Below are positions 426 through 36,044 of a stretch of DNA of 36,535 nt, one piece after another. The notes beneath the pieces were generated by a model. It saw only the letters and a list, made by a program, of their open reading frames with translations, did not search any database and had not been told where the DNA came from. The translations under genes were made by a program, and so were the position numbers. This stretch comes from a virus. The first letter of the stretch is position 1; the number at the start of each line of letters is the position of its first letter. The stretch covers positions 1 through 36,535 of IMG/VR virus record IMGVR_UViG_3300030451_001009. The stretch is one strand, 5' to 3'.

Positions 426-922
426 TTTTTGTGATTTAATTTTAATATATCTTTCATCTTAACTTGTGTTATTAAATCTTTCCAACCTTTTCTCGTATAT
501 CCTTTGTATAACGCCTGATCAGCTCTTTCAACCACATCTCCAATATTACAAATCTTATCTGCCATTTTCTGTAAATCTTCTCTATGGACCAACACAAAGT
601 GGTCATCTTGCTCGAAGGCAATGATGTCAACCTCTGATAATAACCAACCTGTTTGTCCAATGGTGTTTCTGTATTCAAGCCATACAATTTCAGATTGAGG
701 CTCTTTATCTTTCCTATTGATTTTCTTTCTTGCTTTAACATCAATAGTTCCGAATTTTGTAATAAAATCGATGTGTTTAAATTGTTCAACTTGACTTGAT
801 CTTTGTGCATTTTCATCCCTTCTCAATAATATTTTATAAAAATAATCTTCTAAATTTTGTCCTCGCTTCCAGCTTTCTAACTTGCGTTTATTTTTATAGC
901 TGAATTTATTTTTCATACGCAT
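410..922 (-). CDS. PD-(D/E)XK family endonuclease
   Basis: The protein has the restriction-endonuclease-like active-site layout: E26 in an N-terminal helix (GQNLEDYFYKIL), D52 in HIDFITKFG, then D61-V-K63 on the next strand, followed by basic residues. At about 170 aa it fits a small phage resolvase or repair nuclease more than a restriction enzyme. Its place beside Mom-like, methyltransferase and HNH genes suggests recombination or host-DNA attack. There are two possible starts: ATG at 922, or the third codon ATG at 916, which gives the ATGA overlap with the upstream stop used elsewhere in this operon. Neither has a clear Shine-Dalgarno. Substrate is unknown. Confidence 0.7.
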   Translation of the reverse strand: MRMKNKFSYKNKRKLESWKRGQNLEDYFYKILLRRDENAQRSSQVEQFKHIDFITKFGTIDVKARKKINRKDKEPQSEIVWLEYRNTIGQTGWLLSEVDIIAFEQDDHFVLVHREDLQKMADKICNIGDVVERADQALYKGYTRKGWKDLITQVKMKDILKLNHKKWRKE

Positions 923-1533
923 ACAATAATTGGTTTAATATATTCTCCTAAAACATAATTTTTATTTTCATTTTTAGGATATGGTTGTATTTTATAATTT
1001 AAATTATTTAACATTTTCTTTTTTTCATTTTTAGTTTTTGCACAAAAATATATATATCTATGCTTGCTGCTTCTTACTTTCCTTCTGCCATTTTGATTAT
1101 CATTAGAATAATGTCTTGAATGCTTATTACCTTCTACATATTTATCTGTTCTTGATTTTGTTGCACCAGTATAAATCCAGTTAGTCGCTTGATATATATA
1201 TCCATTGTGATTCATAGATGTATCTGCATAAGAAATAATAATCCAATTCTTTTGTTTTAGCTGCTTTAAACAGTAAGAAACAAACTTTGATAATGGTTTA
1301 TTAAAATCATCTGTTCTGCAAAGTCTGTTTAGCTCATATACATTTTTTGTGTATTCTTCTCCACATACTCCTTTACATAAAGAGTTACTAGCTGGTTTTC
1401 CAAAACTACATACTGCTTTTAATTCTTCATTATCAAACCAACCATAAGCTATACTTATTACTGGTTTTCTACCTGAATAATGTCTAGGTAAAAGAAAGTC
1501 TATAGCTTGCTTGTATGTAATTTCTTTTATCAA
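913..1533 (-). CDS. Mom-like DNA modification protein
   Basis: The protein matches the Mu Mom family, an acetyltransferase-fold enzyme that adds a carbamoylmethyl-type group to adenine to block restriction. Family landmarks seen here are RHYSG (residues 17-21), AYGWFDNEELKAVCSFG (29-45), YELNRLCR (66-73), and SYADTSMNHNGYIYQATNWI (101-120) followed by YTG. The first codon is TTG at 1533, whose last two bases overlap the stop of the 28-aa gene upstream (TTGA). No ATG exists in this frame upstream, although the frame stays open, so translation is probably coupled. Its neighbours include two methyltransferases, giving a DNA-modification block. The exact modification cannot be read from sequence. 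Confidence 0.82.
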   Translation of the reverse strand: MIKEITYKQAIDFLLPRHYSGRKPVISIAYGWFDNEELKAVCSFGKPASNSLCKGVCGEEYTKNVYELNRLCRTDDFNKPLSKFVSYCLKQLKQKNWIIISYADTSMNHNGYIYQATNWIYTGATKSRTDKYVEGNKHSRHYSNDNQNGRRKVRSSKHRYIYFCAKTKNEKKKMLNNLNYKIQPYPKNENKNYVLGEYIKPIIVCV

Positions 1534-1616
1534 AGTATCATTTCCATTAATGCAACAAATATTAATGCACCCATAATCATTATCATTCCATAGTATAACA
1601 TTGTTTCTTCATCCAT
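1530..1616 (-). CDS. 28-aa membrane peptide coupled to Mom-like gene
   Basis: This short ORF has a good ribosome-binding site (AGGAG, with the usual GAATAAA spacer before ATG at 1616). It begins MDEETMLYYG, followed by a hydrophobic, methionine-rich segment long enough to span a membrane once (GMIMIMGALIFVALMEMIL). Its TGA overlaps the TTG start of the Mom-like gene. It may be a functional membrane peptide, or mainly a leader that brings ribosomes to the weak downstream start. The strong ribosome-binding site supports translation; the function is unknown. Confidence 0.6.
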   Translation of the reverse strand: MDEETMLYYGMIMIMGALIFVALMEMIL

Positions 1617-1625
1617 TTTATTCTC

Positions 1626-2252
1626 CTATAACAATATTTGTTGTTGTTGTTCTTTTTTTAATCTATCTAAAGCTAAAGTATAATAATCTTTATTTATCTC
1701 ATAACCTTCAAATTGATAACCCATTTGGTGACAAGCTATAGCACTTGCTCCACTTCCTAAATGTGTGTCTAAAATTTTATCTTCTTGATTAGCATAATTT
1801 TCTAATATCCATTTATATAAATCTATAGGTTTTTGTGTTGGATGTATTTTATTTCTAACTGCAGTTGTTGAATATCTAAATATTCTTGCAACACAATCAA
1901 AACTGGTCCAAGCCATTTCCCATGCAGAAAAGTTGAGCCAAGGTTGTTTTTTATCCCAACAAATAATACCTCTACTTTTTCCTAAATAATCACCAAAATA
2001 ATTACCACCCCAAATAATTTGATTTTTTGATACTCTAAATAACTCATTAAAATATTCTTTTGTTGGTGCTATATCCCAACCTAATTTGTGCATTTCTTGT
2101 ATTTTTCTATTTGATAATTTTCCTGCACCTTGTCCACTTCGTTTAGGTAATTCGTATGGTGGATCGACAATAGCTAAATCAAATTCATTATCTTTCATAT
2201 CTTTCATTGCTTCCATACAATCAATGTTATATATATTTATTGCATTATCCAT
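1626..2252 (-). CDS. DNA (adenine-N6 or cytosine-N4) methyltransferase
   Basis: This is a compact 208-aa beta-type amino-methyltransferase. Catalytic motif IV DPPY is at residues 30-33 and the SAM-binding motif I is near the C-terminus (LDTHLGSGAS, about 161-170), followed by an acidic residue in FEGYEI. The central HPTQKP segment (about 137-142) is also typical. The ATG lies within the upstream HNH gene's -1 reading frame end, and after the stop only nine bases separate it from the 28-aa gene. It probably protects phage DNA or modifies it together with the Mom-like enzyme. The recognition sequence is not predictable here. Confidence 0.9.
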   Translation of the reverse strand: MDNAINIYNIDCMEAMKDMKDNEFDLAIVDPPYELPKRSGQGAGKLSNRKIQEMHKLGWDIAPTKEYFNELFRVSKNQIIWGGNYFGDYLGKSRGIICWDKKQPWLNFSAWEMAWTSFDCVARIFRYSTTAVRNKIHPTQKPIDLYKWILENYANQEDKILDTHLGSGASAIACHQMGYQFEGYEINKDYYTLALDRLKKEQQQQILL

Positions 2253-2255
2253 TTA

Positions 2256-2672
2256 TTAGGTCCTTAATAACTTCATAGTATTTTTTTCCATAATCACTTC
2301 CATCAGCTTTGGTGTTTTTATGTAATTCTGCAAGTATGATAGTAGGAATTTTAATTTTTTTTTTGCTATTTCTTTTAAATAAAAGTATCTATCTGGAAAC
2401 TTTTCATTAAACCATTCAGCAGCTTCTAAAGGATTCTTATGCCACCAAGACAAGTGACAAGGCATACCACATAATACTTTCATATTGCTTGGATCAAGCT
2501 CAAGAGATTTGTATGCACCTACATTTAAAATATGAGAAGCGTGACAATTAGCTCCTTCAACAACTTTACCACATCGCTGACAAGTCCAATTATCACGCTC
2601 TTTAACACAACGCTTGGCTTTCTCAACTAACTTCTTGAGATACCAAGTTCTGTTGTGTGGAAGTTTAGGCAT
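2256..2672 (-). CDS. HNH / NinG-like nuclease with apparent -1 shift
   Basis: Zinc and HNH-type landmarks are C31-x2-C34, CHASHILN (43-50), DPSNMKVLC (60-68), PCH (71-73) and WWH (76-78). This resembles NinG/Rap-type HNH nucleases of phage recombination. At codons 103-106 an A10 run (plus-strand T at 2355-2364) contains A_AAA_AAA in frame. In the zero frame the protein ends with an unnatural-looking 32-aa tail. A -1 shift instead gives a 36-aa tail beginning IKIPTIILAELHKNTKADG and ending at TAA 2247-2245, total 142 aa, overlapping the next start by eight bases. I regard the shifted C-terminus as the biological one, whether by slippage or because one A is missing from the assembly. Confidence 0.78.
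   Translation of the reverse strand: MPKLPHNRTWYLKKLVEKAKRCVKERDNWTCQRCGKVVEGANCHASHILNVGAYKSLELDPSNMKVLCGMPCHLSWWHKNPLEAAEWFNEKFPDRYFYLKEIAKKKLKFLLSYLQNYIKTPKLMEVIMEKNTMKLLRT
2355..2364 (-). other. A10 slippery run in HNH gene
   Basis: On the coding (minus) strand this is ten consecutive A after GC, read GCA AAA AAA AAA TTA. It includes the heptamer A_AAA_AAA in the zero frame, a classic -1 ribosomal slippage site, and is long enough for transcriptional slippage. No clear upstream Shine-Dalgarno stimulator or downstream hairpin was seen. Confidence 0.6.
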
Positions 2673-3286
2673 TAAAAAGGAATTTCCTCTCTTTCAACTG
2701 CATTAAACTTTTCTATGATTTTATCTTTACCACTTTGCGTACCAGTAAAGTCCATAGCTACCTCATACAAAAAATTTTCATGTTCTTCCCAATCCCACTT
2801 CTCAACACCTTTAACAGTTTTCTTTATTGGTGCTGGTAGGCCATTAGGATTTTCTTTTGTATAAGCAAACTTAATGTTTTCACCTTCTTGCCTAATAAAT
2901 AAAAAGTTAGATTCTTTTTCTTTATCCCATCCTAAACCTAAAAACAACGCTTTAGATTTATCAATGTTAGGCATACGTTTTGCATATTGTCCAAAGAATT
3001 TAGAATCCAAAGATATTTGTAATGAAAATTTAGAACCTTCATCATCTTCTAATTCTGTTACAAAGTTAGCACCATACTCTGACTCGTCTACATAACAAGA
3101 TTGTATTTTACCTTCAATACCTGTATATTGTAATTCTTTAACGAGTTTGCCAGCATTTGGTCCAGCTTTTAATTCTCTTTCTATTGCGTTTGGATCTTCT
3201 GAATCATCTGATAAACGTATTGTAAATTTACCATTTGATATTGTTACTATTTTACTATTGTTACTACTACCATTTGTTAATCCCAT
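2672..3286 (-). CDS. Single-stranded DNA-binding-like protein
   Basis: The 204-aa protein ends in an acidic tail with a terminal hydrophobic pair (EREEIPF), the protein-interaction tip seen in SSB and T7 gp2.5-type proteins. The middle is beta-rich with alternating aromatic and charged residues, compatible with an OB fold, but no family signature is decisive. It has a strong ribosome-binding site (AGGAG before ATG 3286) after a 29-base gap, one of the few non-overlapping junctions in this part of the operon. Its stop overlaps the HNH start (TAATG). Placement between helicase/initiator and nuclease genes supports a replication or recombination role. Confidence 0.65.
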   Translation of the reverse strand: MGLTNGSSNNSKIVTISNGKFTIRLSDDSEDPNAIERELKAGPNAGKLVKELQYTGIEGKIQSCYVDESEYGANFVTELEDDEGSKFSLQISLDSKFFGQYAKRMPNIDKSKALFLGLGWDKEKESNFLFIRQEGENIKFAYTKENPNGLPAPIKKTVKGVEKWDWEEHENFLYEVAMDFTGTQSGKDKIIEKFNAVEREEIPF

Positions 3287-3315
3287 AAGTTTCTCCTTAT
3301 AATTAAGATTTTATT

Positions 3316-4311
3316 TTACATATTTAATGACATTTGTAAACCTGATAATCTATGTTTTATAATATCAACATATCTCTCATTTAATTCACAAAGTATTGCA
3401 TTTCTATTATTTTGATTGGCAACCAGAGCTGTTGTTCCAGCACCACCAAATGGATCAAGAACTGTACCACCAACTGGACAACCAGCTAGAATACATGGTT
3501 CTATTAACTTGACTGGATATGTTGCAAAATGAGCTTCCTTGTAAGGTTTAGTATTTACAATCCAGACACTTCTTTTATTTCTTTTTCCATCAAACTTTTT
3601 GATACCAGCAGTATGTTTAGCTCCTATTGCAGAGTAACCTCCAGACTCATGTTTTGGTCCAGTCATACATGGTTTTTCTAATCTTTTTTTTGTTGCTTCT
3701 GGATTAACACTATTCTCTTTAATAGCTTCATGGTCGTAATAATATTTAGATGATTTGCTTAATAAAAATATATACTCATGTGATTTTGTACAACGATCTC
3801 TAACTGACTCTGGCATTGGATTAGGTTTATGCCATATTATATCTTGTCTTAAATACCAACCATCTTGTTGTAATGCAAGAGCAGTACGAAATGGTATACC
3901 TAATAAATTTTTATTGTTGTCGTATGTATCTCCAAGATTTAACCATAATGTTCCATCATCACGCAGCACTCTTTTTACTTCTCGAAATACTTTAACCATT
4001 GTATTAATAAAATCTTCAGGACTTTCTTCTAATCCTATTTGTTCATCTATTCTTTTTGCACCACATTTTTTGCATACTTTCCAAGTAGATGTGCCTTGTC
4101 CATTATTATTAGTAGATTGCATATAAGTATTTTGTCCACGATTTTGATATGGATCAATGTGGTCGCAATCTGGATTACCACCTTCCCATTCAGCAGTACC
4201 ATAATCTCTTAATCCAAAATATGGAGGAGATGTTACACAACAATTAACAGATTTATCTTTTAATGTTTTAAGAGTATCTAAACAATTTCCAACAAGTATT
4301 TCGTATTTCAT
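3316..4311 (-). CDS. Site-specific DNA methyltransferase (SPPY type)
   Basis: This 331-aa beta-class amino-methyltransferase has motif IV SPPY at residues 28-31, in the context TSPPYFGLRDYG found in a widespread phage and bacterial family. Motif I is near the C-terminus (LDPFGGAGTT, about 285-294). A zinc-knuckle-like insertion lies between about 49 and 82 (CDH, then CKKCGAKR). The ATG overlaps the helicase stop (ATGA). With the second methyltransferase and the Mom-like gene it forms an anti-restriction/DNA-modification group. Whether the target is adenine N6 or cytosine N4 cannot be told from the sequence alone. Confidence 0.92.
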   Translation of the reverse strand: MKYEILVGNCLDTLKTLKDKSVNCCVTSPPYFGLRDYGTAEWEGGNPDCDHIDPYQNRGQNTYMQSTNNNGQGTSTWKVCKKCGAKRIDEQIGLEESPEDFINTMVKVFREVKRVLRDDGTLWLNLGDTYDNNKNLLGIPFRTALALQQDGWYLRQDIIWHKPNPMPESVRDRCTKSHEYIFLLSKSSKYYYDHEAIKENSVNPEATKKRLEKPCMTGPKHESGGYSAIGAKHTAGIKKFDGKRNKRSVWIVNTKPYKEAHFATYPVKLIEPCILAGCPVGGTVLDPFGGAGTTALVANQNNRNAILCELNERYVDIIKHRLSGLQMSLNM

Positions 4312-32791: not shown

Positions 32792-32979
32792 CATATGAAA
32801 TAAATTTTAATGGTGAAACTATAACAGTAATTAATGAAGATAATTATATAAAATTAATTCATGGTGATGCTTTTTCTATTCTTAATAAAGAATCATATAA
32901 TAATGATGATTTACAAATATTATTAGATAGCACAGATGAAATAAAGATAGCTGAAGGTAGAGCGTTGTTAGATGAGTAA
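32788..32979 (+). CDS. Hypothetical protein, 63 aa
   Basis: The ATG overlaps the upstream stop (ATGA), and its stop lies eight bases inside the next gene. It is acidic with an N-terminal strand (YEINFNGETITVINEDNYI) and a C-terminal helix. No family recognised. It is probably translated by coupling with the tail gene upstream. Confidence 0.68.
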   Translation: MTYEINFNGETITVINEDNYIKLIHGDAFSILNKESYNNDDLQILLDSTDEIKIAEGRALLDE

Positions 32980-33577
32980 AAAAGGTAAAAACGTAACTAT
33001 TAAAGGTGTACTGTATGAAGATGGTATGTTTGACCATTCTACAGAAGATGACATTTATTCTTCAAAAGATAAAAGTAAACTTCCAAAGTTTGATGAAGCA
33101 GCAAAAGAAACAGTTGCTACAGAAGTAGCTAGTCAAACTACACAAAGTGGTATACAAGCTGTGGTTGCACAAGTGCAAACTCAAGCAGCTAATCTTGGTG
33201 CATCTGGATTAATAGCAGTAGGTAGTGCTGGTGCATTTCAAGTAGAACACATGAATGATAACTATGAAGCTGCAATGGAAATTGCTACACCAATAGTTGC
33301 AGAGTTGGTAGAAACTGGAACTATATCACAAGAAACTATTGCAACAGTTTTGCCAGCAGATTCAAAATTTCAAGGTAAAGAGTTACCAGTAGCAGAAACA
33401 GTATTAGGTAAACCTGTAGGTGAATATAAAAAACAAATTGATGCTGAAAAAAATAAATCAGATGAACAGAAAGCAATAGAAGAAGCTATTCAAAAAGCTA
33501 CATCTCCTCCTAATCCAAGCGATGGAGAAAAAGATGGAAGTATGACTTTTATCGAAAAGAATAGGAGTGCAACATGA
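32972..33577 (+). CDS. Hypothetical protein, 201 aa
   Basis: Not recognised. A basic start (MSKKGKNVTIKGVLYEDGMF) is followed by an alanine/glutamine-rich helical centre (QSGIQAVVAQVQTQAANLGA, about 76-95) with the weakly hydrophobic SGLIAVGSAGAFQV. The C-terminal part is charged (EKNKSDEQKAIEEAIQKA). It lies between tail genes and the lysis-type block. A minor structural or fibre-related role is possible, without direct evidence. Confidence 0.7.
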   Translation: MSKKGKNVTIKGVLYEDGMFDHSTEDDIYSSKDKSKLPKFDEAAKETVATEVASQTTQSGIQAVVAQVQTQAANLGASGLIAVGSAGAFQVEHMNDNYEAAMEIATPIVAELVETGTISQETIATVLPADSKFQGKELPVAETVLGKPVGEYKKQIDAEKNKSDEQKAIEEAIQKATSPPNPSDGEKDGSMTFIEKNRSAT

Positions 33578-33723
33578 TTTATTTAGAAGTTATATGGCAA
33601 GCAATAAAAGCTAATGCTATTGGTATATTAATTGGTTTAGGTGGTTTAATATGTACGTTGAGTATGTTTATGCCAAGACATTGGAAAATATTTAAAATTA
33701 TTAGTTGGATAAAAAAGAAATGA
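33574..33723 (+). CDS. 49-aa single-pass membrane protein (holin candidate 1)
   Basis: The ATG (ATGA overlap with the upstream stop, AGGAG at good spacing) opens a 49-codon frame. It has a short N-terminal part (MIYLEVIWQAIKAN), one membrane segment (about 15-31, AIGILIGLGGLICTLSM) and a basic tail (PRHWKIFKIISWIKKK). Such small proteins with one membrane span and a lysine-rich end are common as class III-like holins or holin regulators. Its stop overlaps the next ATG. Confidence 0.68.
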   Translation: MIYLEVIWQAIKANAIGILIGLGGLICTLSMFMPRHWKIFKIISWIKKK

Positions 33724-34301
33724 GAAAAAAATTCGCTGGATATTCTATGATAGTAGTCGCTTTTTTGTATTGGGTTTTGTTGTTTACAGCTTCTGTTACG
33801 CAAGCAGATTTATATGTGTATGATTTACAGGCCAATCTTTCAGAAAGTAATGTTACCTATGTGGACCAAGAGCCATTCTATTATGATATATTTCATATAC
33901 AAACAGATGGGTATGCGACATTGGCCTTTGATAACTATGACGCTGATTTAGGTAGTAGTAATCCTAACTATGACTTCAATGACCCATATCTTTATTTGTA
34001 TACAATAGAACAACCTTCATTTGTTGGATTTGGTAGTGGATCTGTACAACTTACATTGTTTGATGAAGATGACGATGGCAACGAAGACAGTCCAGAAGGA
34101 TTATATTTTTATCTAGATGATGTACAGATACATAATCAGTTAGTAGCAATAGTATCTAGTTATGATCCATACGTTGTAGGAACAGTAGATTTTACAGTAA
34201 CAAGTGATCAACCATTAAGTATTATACCAGAGCCACAAGCTATAAGTTTGATACTACTAGGTGGTGCAAGTTTATTAATAGCTAAAAGGAAGATGTCGTG
34301 A
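33720..34301 (+). CDS. Secreted PEP-CTERM protein
   Basis: ATG 33720 gives the ATGA overlap; an upstream TTG (33705) is less likely. Residues 1-29 form a signal peptide (MRKKF, hydrophobic 9-24, then SVTQA before D30). The body is acidic and aromatic (YDAD, EDDDGNEDSPEG, DDVQ). The C-terminus has the full sorting signature: PEP at 170-172, a hydrophobic helix (ISLILLGGASLLI) and KRK. In bacteria such proteins are processed by exosortase and sent to the cell surface or matrix. No exosortase is encoded here, so the host must supply it. The gene sits between two small membrane proteins. Confidence 0.85.
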   Translation: MRKKFAGYSMIVVAFLYWVLLFTASVTQADLYVYDLQANLSESNVTYVDQEPFYYDIFHIQTDGYATLAFDNYDADLGSSNPNYDFNDPYLYLYTIEQPSFVGFGSGSVQLTLFDEDDDGNEDSPEGLYFYLDDVQIHNQLVAIVSSYDPYVVGTVDFTVTSDQPLSIIPEPQAISLILLGGASLLIAKRKMS

Positions 34302-34450
34302 ATGATTGTATTGAGAAAAGTATGGTTGGAACAATAGGATTTATAAGTAGCTGGAATCTACAAGTAATTAATCCTTTGTTGTCGCTTATTATATCTGTAT
34401 TAACTATAGTATATTTAGTTATAGGCATTAAACAAAGATTAAGTAAATGA
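34298..34450 (+). CDS. 50-aa membrane protein (holin candidate 2)
   Basis: GTG start at 34298, overlapping the upstream stop (GTGA), with AAGGAAG about six bases before it. The frame has 50 codons: a polar start (NDCIEKSMVG), moderately hydrophobic GFISSW, and a clear membrane segment (about 26-43, PLLSLIISVLTIVYLVIG) with a basic tail (KQRLSK). Its stop overlaps the next ATG (ATGA). Together with the 49-aa protein it brackets the PEP-CTERM gene. A holin or antiholin role is an inference. Confidence 0.65.
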   Translation: MNDCIEKSMVGTIGFISSWNLQVINPLLSLIISVLTIVYLVIGIKQRLSK

Positions 34451-34668
34451 GGAATTACAGACAAGAATATGATCGTTATCAAGGTCTTGCAAAACAAAAA
34501 AAAAGACGAGCTGGTAGAAATAAAGCCAGACAAATGATGATTAAGAAAGTAGGTAAAAATAAATTAGTTGGTAAAGATGTGGACCATAAAGATCGTAACC
34601 CAAATAATAATAACCCTAAAAATTTAAGAATGATTAAAAAAAGTACAAATAGGAGAAGAAATGGCTAA
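34447..34668 (+). CDS. Mini HNH-type protein, 73 aa
   Basis: A very basic N-terminal half (YRQEYDRYQGLAKQKKRRAG) is followed by DVDHKDRNPNNNNPKNLRMI (about 44-63), which matches the core of HNH nucleases (the H of VDHKDRNP, the asparagine-rich turn and the NL motif). The first H-containing strand of larger HNH enzymes is short or missing, so it may be a minimal nicking enzyme or a DNA-binding remnant. Its frame extends eight bases past the start of the next gene. Confidence 0.72.
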   Translation: MRNYRQEYDRYQGLAKQKKRRAGRNKARQMMIKKVGKNKLVGKDVDHKDRNPNNNNPKNLRMIKKSTNRRRNG

Positions 34669-35475: not shown

Positions 35476-35616
35476 ATGCCAGGTACTAAATATTCAGCAA
35501 AACAAATGAAGATTGCAAAAATGGCTGGAGATCCAAACAAGATTGATGCTGCTGATTTTGCAAAACTTAAAAGTAAAAAGAAACGTAAGTTTACCAAGAA
35601 AAAAGGTATGGCTTAA
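35476..35616 (+). CDS. 46-aa basic peptide
   Basis: ATG 35476 follows the preceding stop by one base; AAAGGA lies upstream within the preceding gene. The sequence contains YSAKQMKIAKMAGDPNKIDA, then LKSKKKRKFTKKKG. Its stop overlaps the start of the next gene (TAATG). A nucleic-acid-binding role is suggested only by composition. Confidence 0.7.
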   Translation: MPGTKYSAKQMKIAKMAGDPNKIDAADFAKLKSKKKRKFTKKKGMA

Positions 35617-36044
35617 TGCCTATTGAGTTAATATCATTAATAACTGGTAATGTTTCTGGATTTGTATTTAAACTAATTGCTAGTCAAGTAGAAGGCCAAC
35701 AAAGACAACAAGAAATGTTGTTAAAAAAACAAGAAGCAGCAGATAATAGTGCAGATAAAGCAGCACAACGTGGTGGCGAAAGTGGTGCTTGGGTTCGTAG
35801 ATTTATTGTTATAATGGTTATGGTGGGAGTAATTATATTTCCATTTATCCTAGCAGTATTAGGTGGATCAGTGACAATAGAAGAAGATGTACCTAAAGGT
35901 GGTCTTTTTGGATTTCTAGGATTACACAGTAAAGAATTATTAACTGTAACTGGCTCCTACTTCATTTTACCAGAGATCAGGTCATCTGTGCTGGCAGTGG
36001 TCGGATTTTACTTTGGCTCAAGCTGCTTTTCTAACAAAAAGTAA
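35616..36044 (+). CDS. Membrane protein, 142 aa (holin-like)
   Basis: The N-terminus has an amphipathic LISLITGNVSGFVFKLIASQ, then a coiled, glutamine-rich QQRQQEMLLKKQEAADNSAD linker, a strong membrane segment (about 62-85, RFIVIMVMVGVIIFPFILAV) and a second hydrophobic region near the C-terminus (SSVLAVVGFYFGSSC). This pattern recurs in marine podoviruses, usually without an assigned function; holin is a fair guess. It is the last gene of the main late transcript before the promoter at 36054. Confidence 0.72.
   Translation: MPIELISLITGNVSGFVFKLIASQVEGQQRQQEMLLKKQEAADNSADKAAQRGGESGAWVRRFIVIMVMVGVIIFPFILAVLGGSVTIEEDVPKGGLFGFLGLHSKELLTVTGSYFILPEIRSSVLAVVGFYFGSSCFSNKK

Follow-up and report, generated by a model that had tools for sequence, protein, structure and literature searches.

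A phage PEP-CTERM protein in a recurrent gene cassette suggests viral use of host exosortase sorting

Exosortase sorting is a poorly understood host system that directs bacterial proteins to the surface by means of a C-terminal tag, and the locus studied here raises the question of what a protein bearing such a tag is doing in a phage. The window, i.e., the whole stretch of DNA analysed, comprises one virus record (36,535 bases) of podovirus-like layout, whose portal, head and tail-tube proteins have their nearest counterparts in pelagiphages of the HTVC010P kind (about 28–38% identity). The PEP-CTERM genes described for the exosortase (EpsH) system (models TIGR02595 and PF09721) are cellular and lie mostly in single-gene operons (Haft 2006, PMC1569441). 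The gene described here differs from them in being phage-encoded, in belonging to an overlapped cassette and in having no exosortase alongside. Indeed, a search of the phage record found no exosortase, so that processing of the protein would depend on the host. We found no publication on phage use of exosortase sorting in a literature search that lacked most subscription journals.

The gene (33720–34301, plus strand; ATG at 33720, stop codon at 34299–34301) encodes 193 amino acids and is the third in its cassette. PEP-CTERM proteins have a signal peptide, a near-invariant Pro-Glu-Pro, a hydrophobic helix of about 14–16 residues after it and a basic cluster at the extreme C terminus, and all of these are present, as the initial annotation had observed. 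By inspection, residues 1–29 (33720–33806, plus strand) form an N-terminal signal peptide, in which MRKK is followed by a hydrophobic stretch and ASVTQA^D, and the relatives likewise have hydrophobic N termini with small residues at the end. The C-terminal tail, IIPEPQAISLILLGGASLLIAKRKMS, contains PEP at residues 170–172 (cca gag cca; 34227–34235, plus strand), within the stretch matched by TIGR02595 (residues 169–191). It continues with the 16-residue hydrophobic segment QAISLILLGGASLLIA (34236–34283, plus strand; mean hydropathy 2.0), and its translation finishes with the basic end KRKMS (34284–34298, plus strand). The helix is 16 residues long in 18 of the 19 tails compared and 17 in one, and the motif reads PEP in most homologues and PEA in L001, L002 and L007.

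The top profile match of the window protein is NCBIfam TIGR02595 (PEP_CTERM) at 14.8 bits, 1.2 bits short of the curated cut-off of 16 bits, with an E value of 0.038 for the 18,950-model library, equivalent to a single-model expectation of about 2e-6 (0.038/18,950). Pfam PF07589 gives no report for this protein, and an LPXTG anchor was rejected, since the model matches stay below the LPXTG cut-off. Nine homologues at the same locus exceed the TIGR02595 cut-off (L030 at 24.2, L117 at 23.8, L010 at 22.9, L119 at 21.0, L063 at 20.8, L012 at 19.2, L094 at 18.4, L081 at 17.5 and L008 at 16.8 bits), others fall below it (L096, L116, L108, L005 and L004, at 12.3–15.4 bits), and L007 is unreported. 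The profile match that the initial annotation had anticipated is found in these nine homologues and narrowly missed in the window protein itself. A scan for the motif-helix-basic pattern at the C termini of ORFs of at least 60 amino acids picked out 1 of the 112 window ORFs and 14 of the 873 ORFs of 15 related contigs, each at the cassette locus; 12 control tripeptides gave 0 matches among the 873 ORFs, and PEA gave one (L007). A chance likeness of a hydrophobic C terminus to PEP-CTERM, for which the window score just below the cut-off might speak, is contradicted by the nine homologues and the empty control scans and is scarcely credible.

Relatives of the PEP protein were found in 11 viral contigs by protein search, in L012 by a further search with an alignment, and in L063, L030 and L081 through a DNA pattern for IPEPAT; the BFVD library holds an unnamed viral relative, A0A516MBN4 (56% identity). 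A search of bacterial genomes with alignment A1 returned no relatives, and isolate phages gave either no match or weak, chance-like ones to the PEP protein and gene A. The protein bodies are under strong purifying selection, with dN of 0.03–0.07, dS of 0.38–0.70 and dN/dS of 0.05–0.12 between the window body and six relatives. The tail of L008 is far more diverged (dN 0.36, dS 0.99), yet PEP, helix and basic end are kept. Among eight representatives, the podo/sipho bodies clearly form one family, L081 and L119 pair with each other at 30% identity, L116 is marginally similar, and the T4-like L117 has no significant similarity to the other bodies. The L117 tail is nevertheless identical to that of L081 at 17 of 23 positions and to that of L119 at 16 of 23. 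A tail shared by unrelated bodies is a hallmark of PEP-CTERM proteins and typical sorting-signal behaviour, and the phage protein, with its signal peptide, PEP, helix, basic end and diverse bodies, is like the substrates of the cellular system. The gene thus recurs in other phages with its tail retained, and conservation of the body under a variable tail, the pattern named in the initial annotation as speaking against its reading, was not found: even an unrelated body carries the conserved tail. A conserved tail under a replaceable body would also be expected of a decoy or inhibitor whose tail is the active part, that is, a late, abundant PEP-CTERM protein that saturates the host exosortase and stops host surface-protein display. 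A simple decoy would have no need of the purifying selection on the bodies and would leave genes A and B and the barrel described below unexplained, and we regard it as improbable. PEP-CTERM proteins with bodies unlike those of the cassette also occur in viral contigs L023, L042, L075, L027, L056, L080, L084 and L089, which may be prophage or host DNA.

The cassette opens with gene A (32972–33577, plus strand; 201 amino acids, conserved core GASGLIAVGSAGAFQ), which overlaps gene B by 4 bp; gene B (33574–33723, plus strand; 49 amino acids, one likely membrane helix) in turn shares 4 bp with the start of the PEP gene. Scanning viral contigs with gene A and then reading the downstream ORFs, we find the order A-B-PEP in about 30 viral contigs, a count that includes a few (e.g., L093 and L115) in which the PEP gene is cut by the contig end and the tail is unseen. 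The cassette is common to three phage types, a point missing from the initial annotation. These are podovirus-like phages, the window's own kind; HK97-type siphovirus-like phages (L063 with portal, protease, head and tail proteins; L096 and L108 by layout), where the cassette is located between tail genes; and T4-like phages (L091 and L081, with family B DNA polymerase, clamp loader and clamp), where in L030 and L091 it lies beside ribonucleotide reductase genes. After the PEP gene, six T4-like contigs (L081, L119, L113, L116, L117 and L118) carry an outer-membrane barrel; the search for it covered the relatives, and the window phage has none. Podovirus-like contigs whose PEP proteins are 77–88% identical to that of the window have little or no similarity to the window's internal virion proteins over the stretches compared, suggesting that the cassette moves between phages. 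Furthermore, seven contigs (L099, L101, L105, L107, L109, L110 and L112) carry A-B without a PEP gene, which is thus dispensable in some phages.

Overlapping the PEP-gene stop is a gene for a small membrane protein of 50 amino acids (34298–34450, plus strand), a candidate holin. A similar small membrane protein comes after genes A-B in L105, where its gene adjoins that of a phage lysozyme; in the window, a scan of ORFs that took in part of the small ones revealed no lysozyme. This arrangement, the late position near small membrane proteins and the occurrence of PEA variants would suit a lysis-adjacent module with a plain type I membrane anchor, in which the helix fixes a periplasmic protein in the inner membrane independently of exosortase and this protein aids envelope breach at lysis. 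Neither PEP nor a helix of constant length is required of such an anchor, yet these two features persist in all three phage types and beneath an unrelated body. In addition, the L030 and L091 cassettes lie beside ribonucleotide reductase genes rather than a lysis module, six T4-like contigs add the barrel, and the PEP protein contains no cysteine and hence lacks the lipobox of a unimolecular spanin. Together, these features make a type I anchor unlikely. The position among late genes, and between tail genes in siphovirus-like contigs, could instead indicate a virion-associated adhesin or structural protein; a signal peptide and C-terminal anchor are unexpected for a cytoplasmically assembled virion component, and we consider this very improbable. 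The window also encodes a small HNH endonuclease-like protein (PF13392) just downstream of the cassette (34447–34668) and, on the minus strand at 913–4311, a Mom-like DNA modification protein and two DNA methyltransferase-like proteins. A 142-amino-acid protein with hydrophobic segments (35616–36044; phrog_38283, a phrog whose function is not known), possibly a holin, recurs in the majority of the podo- and siphovirus-like contigs with the cassette that were tested.

The mature body (33807–34220, plus strand) is predicted to be a beta-sandwich like the PPC-like and collagen-binding domains. A first structure model (pLDDT 37) was set aside, and the AF2 model that took its place (pLDDT 77.9, pTM 0.78) resembles the Tk-SP C-terminal domain (Z 9.4, rmsd 2.5 and 16% identity, aligned over 102 residues) and the ColG collagen-binding domain (Z 8.1, 10% identity), with Z values not far above what this common arrangement can yield. 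Foldseek found no match in the PDB at E 0.001, and a sequence search of solved structures gave no credible relative. Although the fold may be shared, the phage body, unlike these domains, is not joined to an enzyme, and the identities are low. The DEDDDGNED loop (34062–34088, plus strand) is like the calcium-binding D-x-D-x-D-G loop, its DEDDD and NE are invariant in the first 11 homologues, and it may have a calcium role.

The barrel bears on the host. The L081 barrel matches TIGR03016, 'PEP-CTERM system-associated outer membrane protein', with E 3.4e-5 and a score of 23 bits, far below the cut-off (90.85), and no credible family match is seen for the barrels of L116 and L117. A search with the six-barrel alignment found relatives in 25 of 289 Verrucomicrobiota genomes (best 1e-29), in none of 246 Planctomycetota and in none of 252 Gammaproteobacteria; Verrucomicrobiota is the phylum of a Pontiellaceae genome. 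Reading the genomic context in four regions (L161–L164), we find that the L161 relative (PF10082; partial TIGR03014) is followed by a Wzz/AAA_31 protein and then an SLBB export protein, and that L162–L164 have the same two neighbours (Wzz/kinase and SLBB export), judged by sequence and order. The T4-like barrel is related over its full length to Verrucomicrobiota barrels, among which one matches BBP2_2 and partly EpsL, and is linked by sequence to polysaccharide-export loci of this phylum. It is like the outer-membrane proteins of exopolysaccharide loci (TIGR03016, TIGR03014 EpsL and PF10082 BBP2_2), although the phage barrels score far below the curated cut-offs or are unscored. An association with exopolysaccharide genes is a further likeness to the PEP-CTERM/exosortase system.

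The initial annotation had taken the tail as a hint to the host, naming methylotrophic betaproteobacteria, planctomycetes and verrucomicrobia as groups that include exosortase carriers, and had proposed comparing tails and looking for exosortase in candidate hosts. PEP-CTERM proteins with tails resembling the phage tails are encoded in each of six genomes that have barrel relatives, and exosortase is present in both of the two tested. The barrel gene after the PEP gene points to Verrucomicrobiota rather than to Planctomycetota or Gammaproteobacteria; for the window phage this link is indirect, because it carries no barrel and its virion genes are closest to those of pelagiphages. The window contains no tRNA that could indicate the host, and exosortase occurs in 38 of 318 Alphaproteobacteria genomes, among which the share of SAR11 is not separable. 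A host-dialect DNA pattern, a lead only, picked out 17 genome contigs of mixed phyla, 6 of them with a matching C-terminal tail, including two Pontiellaceae.

A second parallel concerns gene A, which ends in [DEM]ATPI in ten contigs (L012, L030, L081, L093, L095, L113, L115, L116, L117 and L119) and in EKNRSAT in the window, and which has no relatives in the 289 Verrucomicrobiota genomes. The gene immediately upstream of the barrel relative encodes, in seven Verrucomicrobiota loci, a protein with the end [DE]ATPE. Such upstream proteins are seen among genomes L155–L165 and L207, and in L160 a different body has the same end. The ATPI and ATPE ends may be a shared C-terminal recognition tail.

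The PEP protein is probably an exosortase substrate. The reading that it acts as such within a phage envelope cassette is favoured by the nine homologues over the cut-off, the recurrence of A-B-PEP, the four-base overlaps in the window, the L117 tail match, the helix length, the dN/dS values and the barrel context. It is weakened by the sub-threshold scores of the window tail and several relatives, the three PEA motifs, the lack of exosortase in the phage record, the pelagiphage-like virion genes, the seven A-B contigs lacking a PEP gene and the single weak curated match among the phage barrels. As an exosortase substrate, the protein would cross the inner membrane by means of its signal peptide. 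Its C-terminal helix and KRK would anchor it there so that PEP faces the periplasm, and host exosortase would recognise the motif and cut. The outer surface or exopolysaccharide layer would then receive or display the beta-sandwich body, altering what other phages or cells can bind. On balance, we favour a Sec-exported host-exosortase substrate in a phage envelope cassette (A-B-PEP, with a barrel in some T4-like phages) that remodels the infected-cell surface. Surface remodelling is the leading but unproven use; the purpose may be superinfection exclusion, decoy or release. The late display or release of a surface protein and the blockade of the sorting system put forward in the initial annotation are likewise conjectural. 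More tentatively, and with somewhat less than even confidence, we propose that an exchangeable envelope cassette common to phages of exosortase-bearing bacteria hijacks the host PEP-CTERM/exopolysaccharide pathway. It would supply replaceable exosortase-sorted surface proteins, helpers A and B (A often ATPI-ended, mirroring the ATPE end of the host protein encoded beside the host barrel) and, in T4-like phages, an export-type barrel of their own, and its use would be a changed infected-cell surface.

Together, these observations suggest that viruses exploit host exosortase sorting. A phage cassette that keeps its tail and can change its body offers compact natural substrates for probing how exosortase acts and where its products go. 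The cassette also provides a genomic marker by which to recognise phages of bacteria that bear exosortase; these may include Verrucomicrobiota, few marine phages of which have been reported (PMC3861242).
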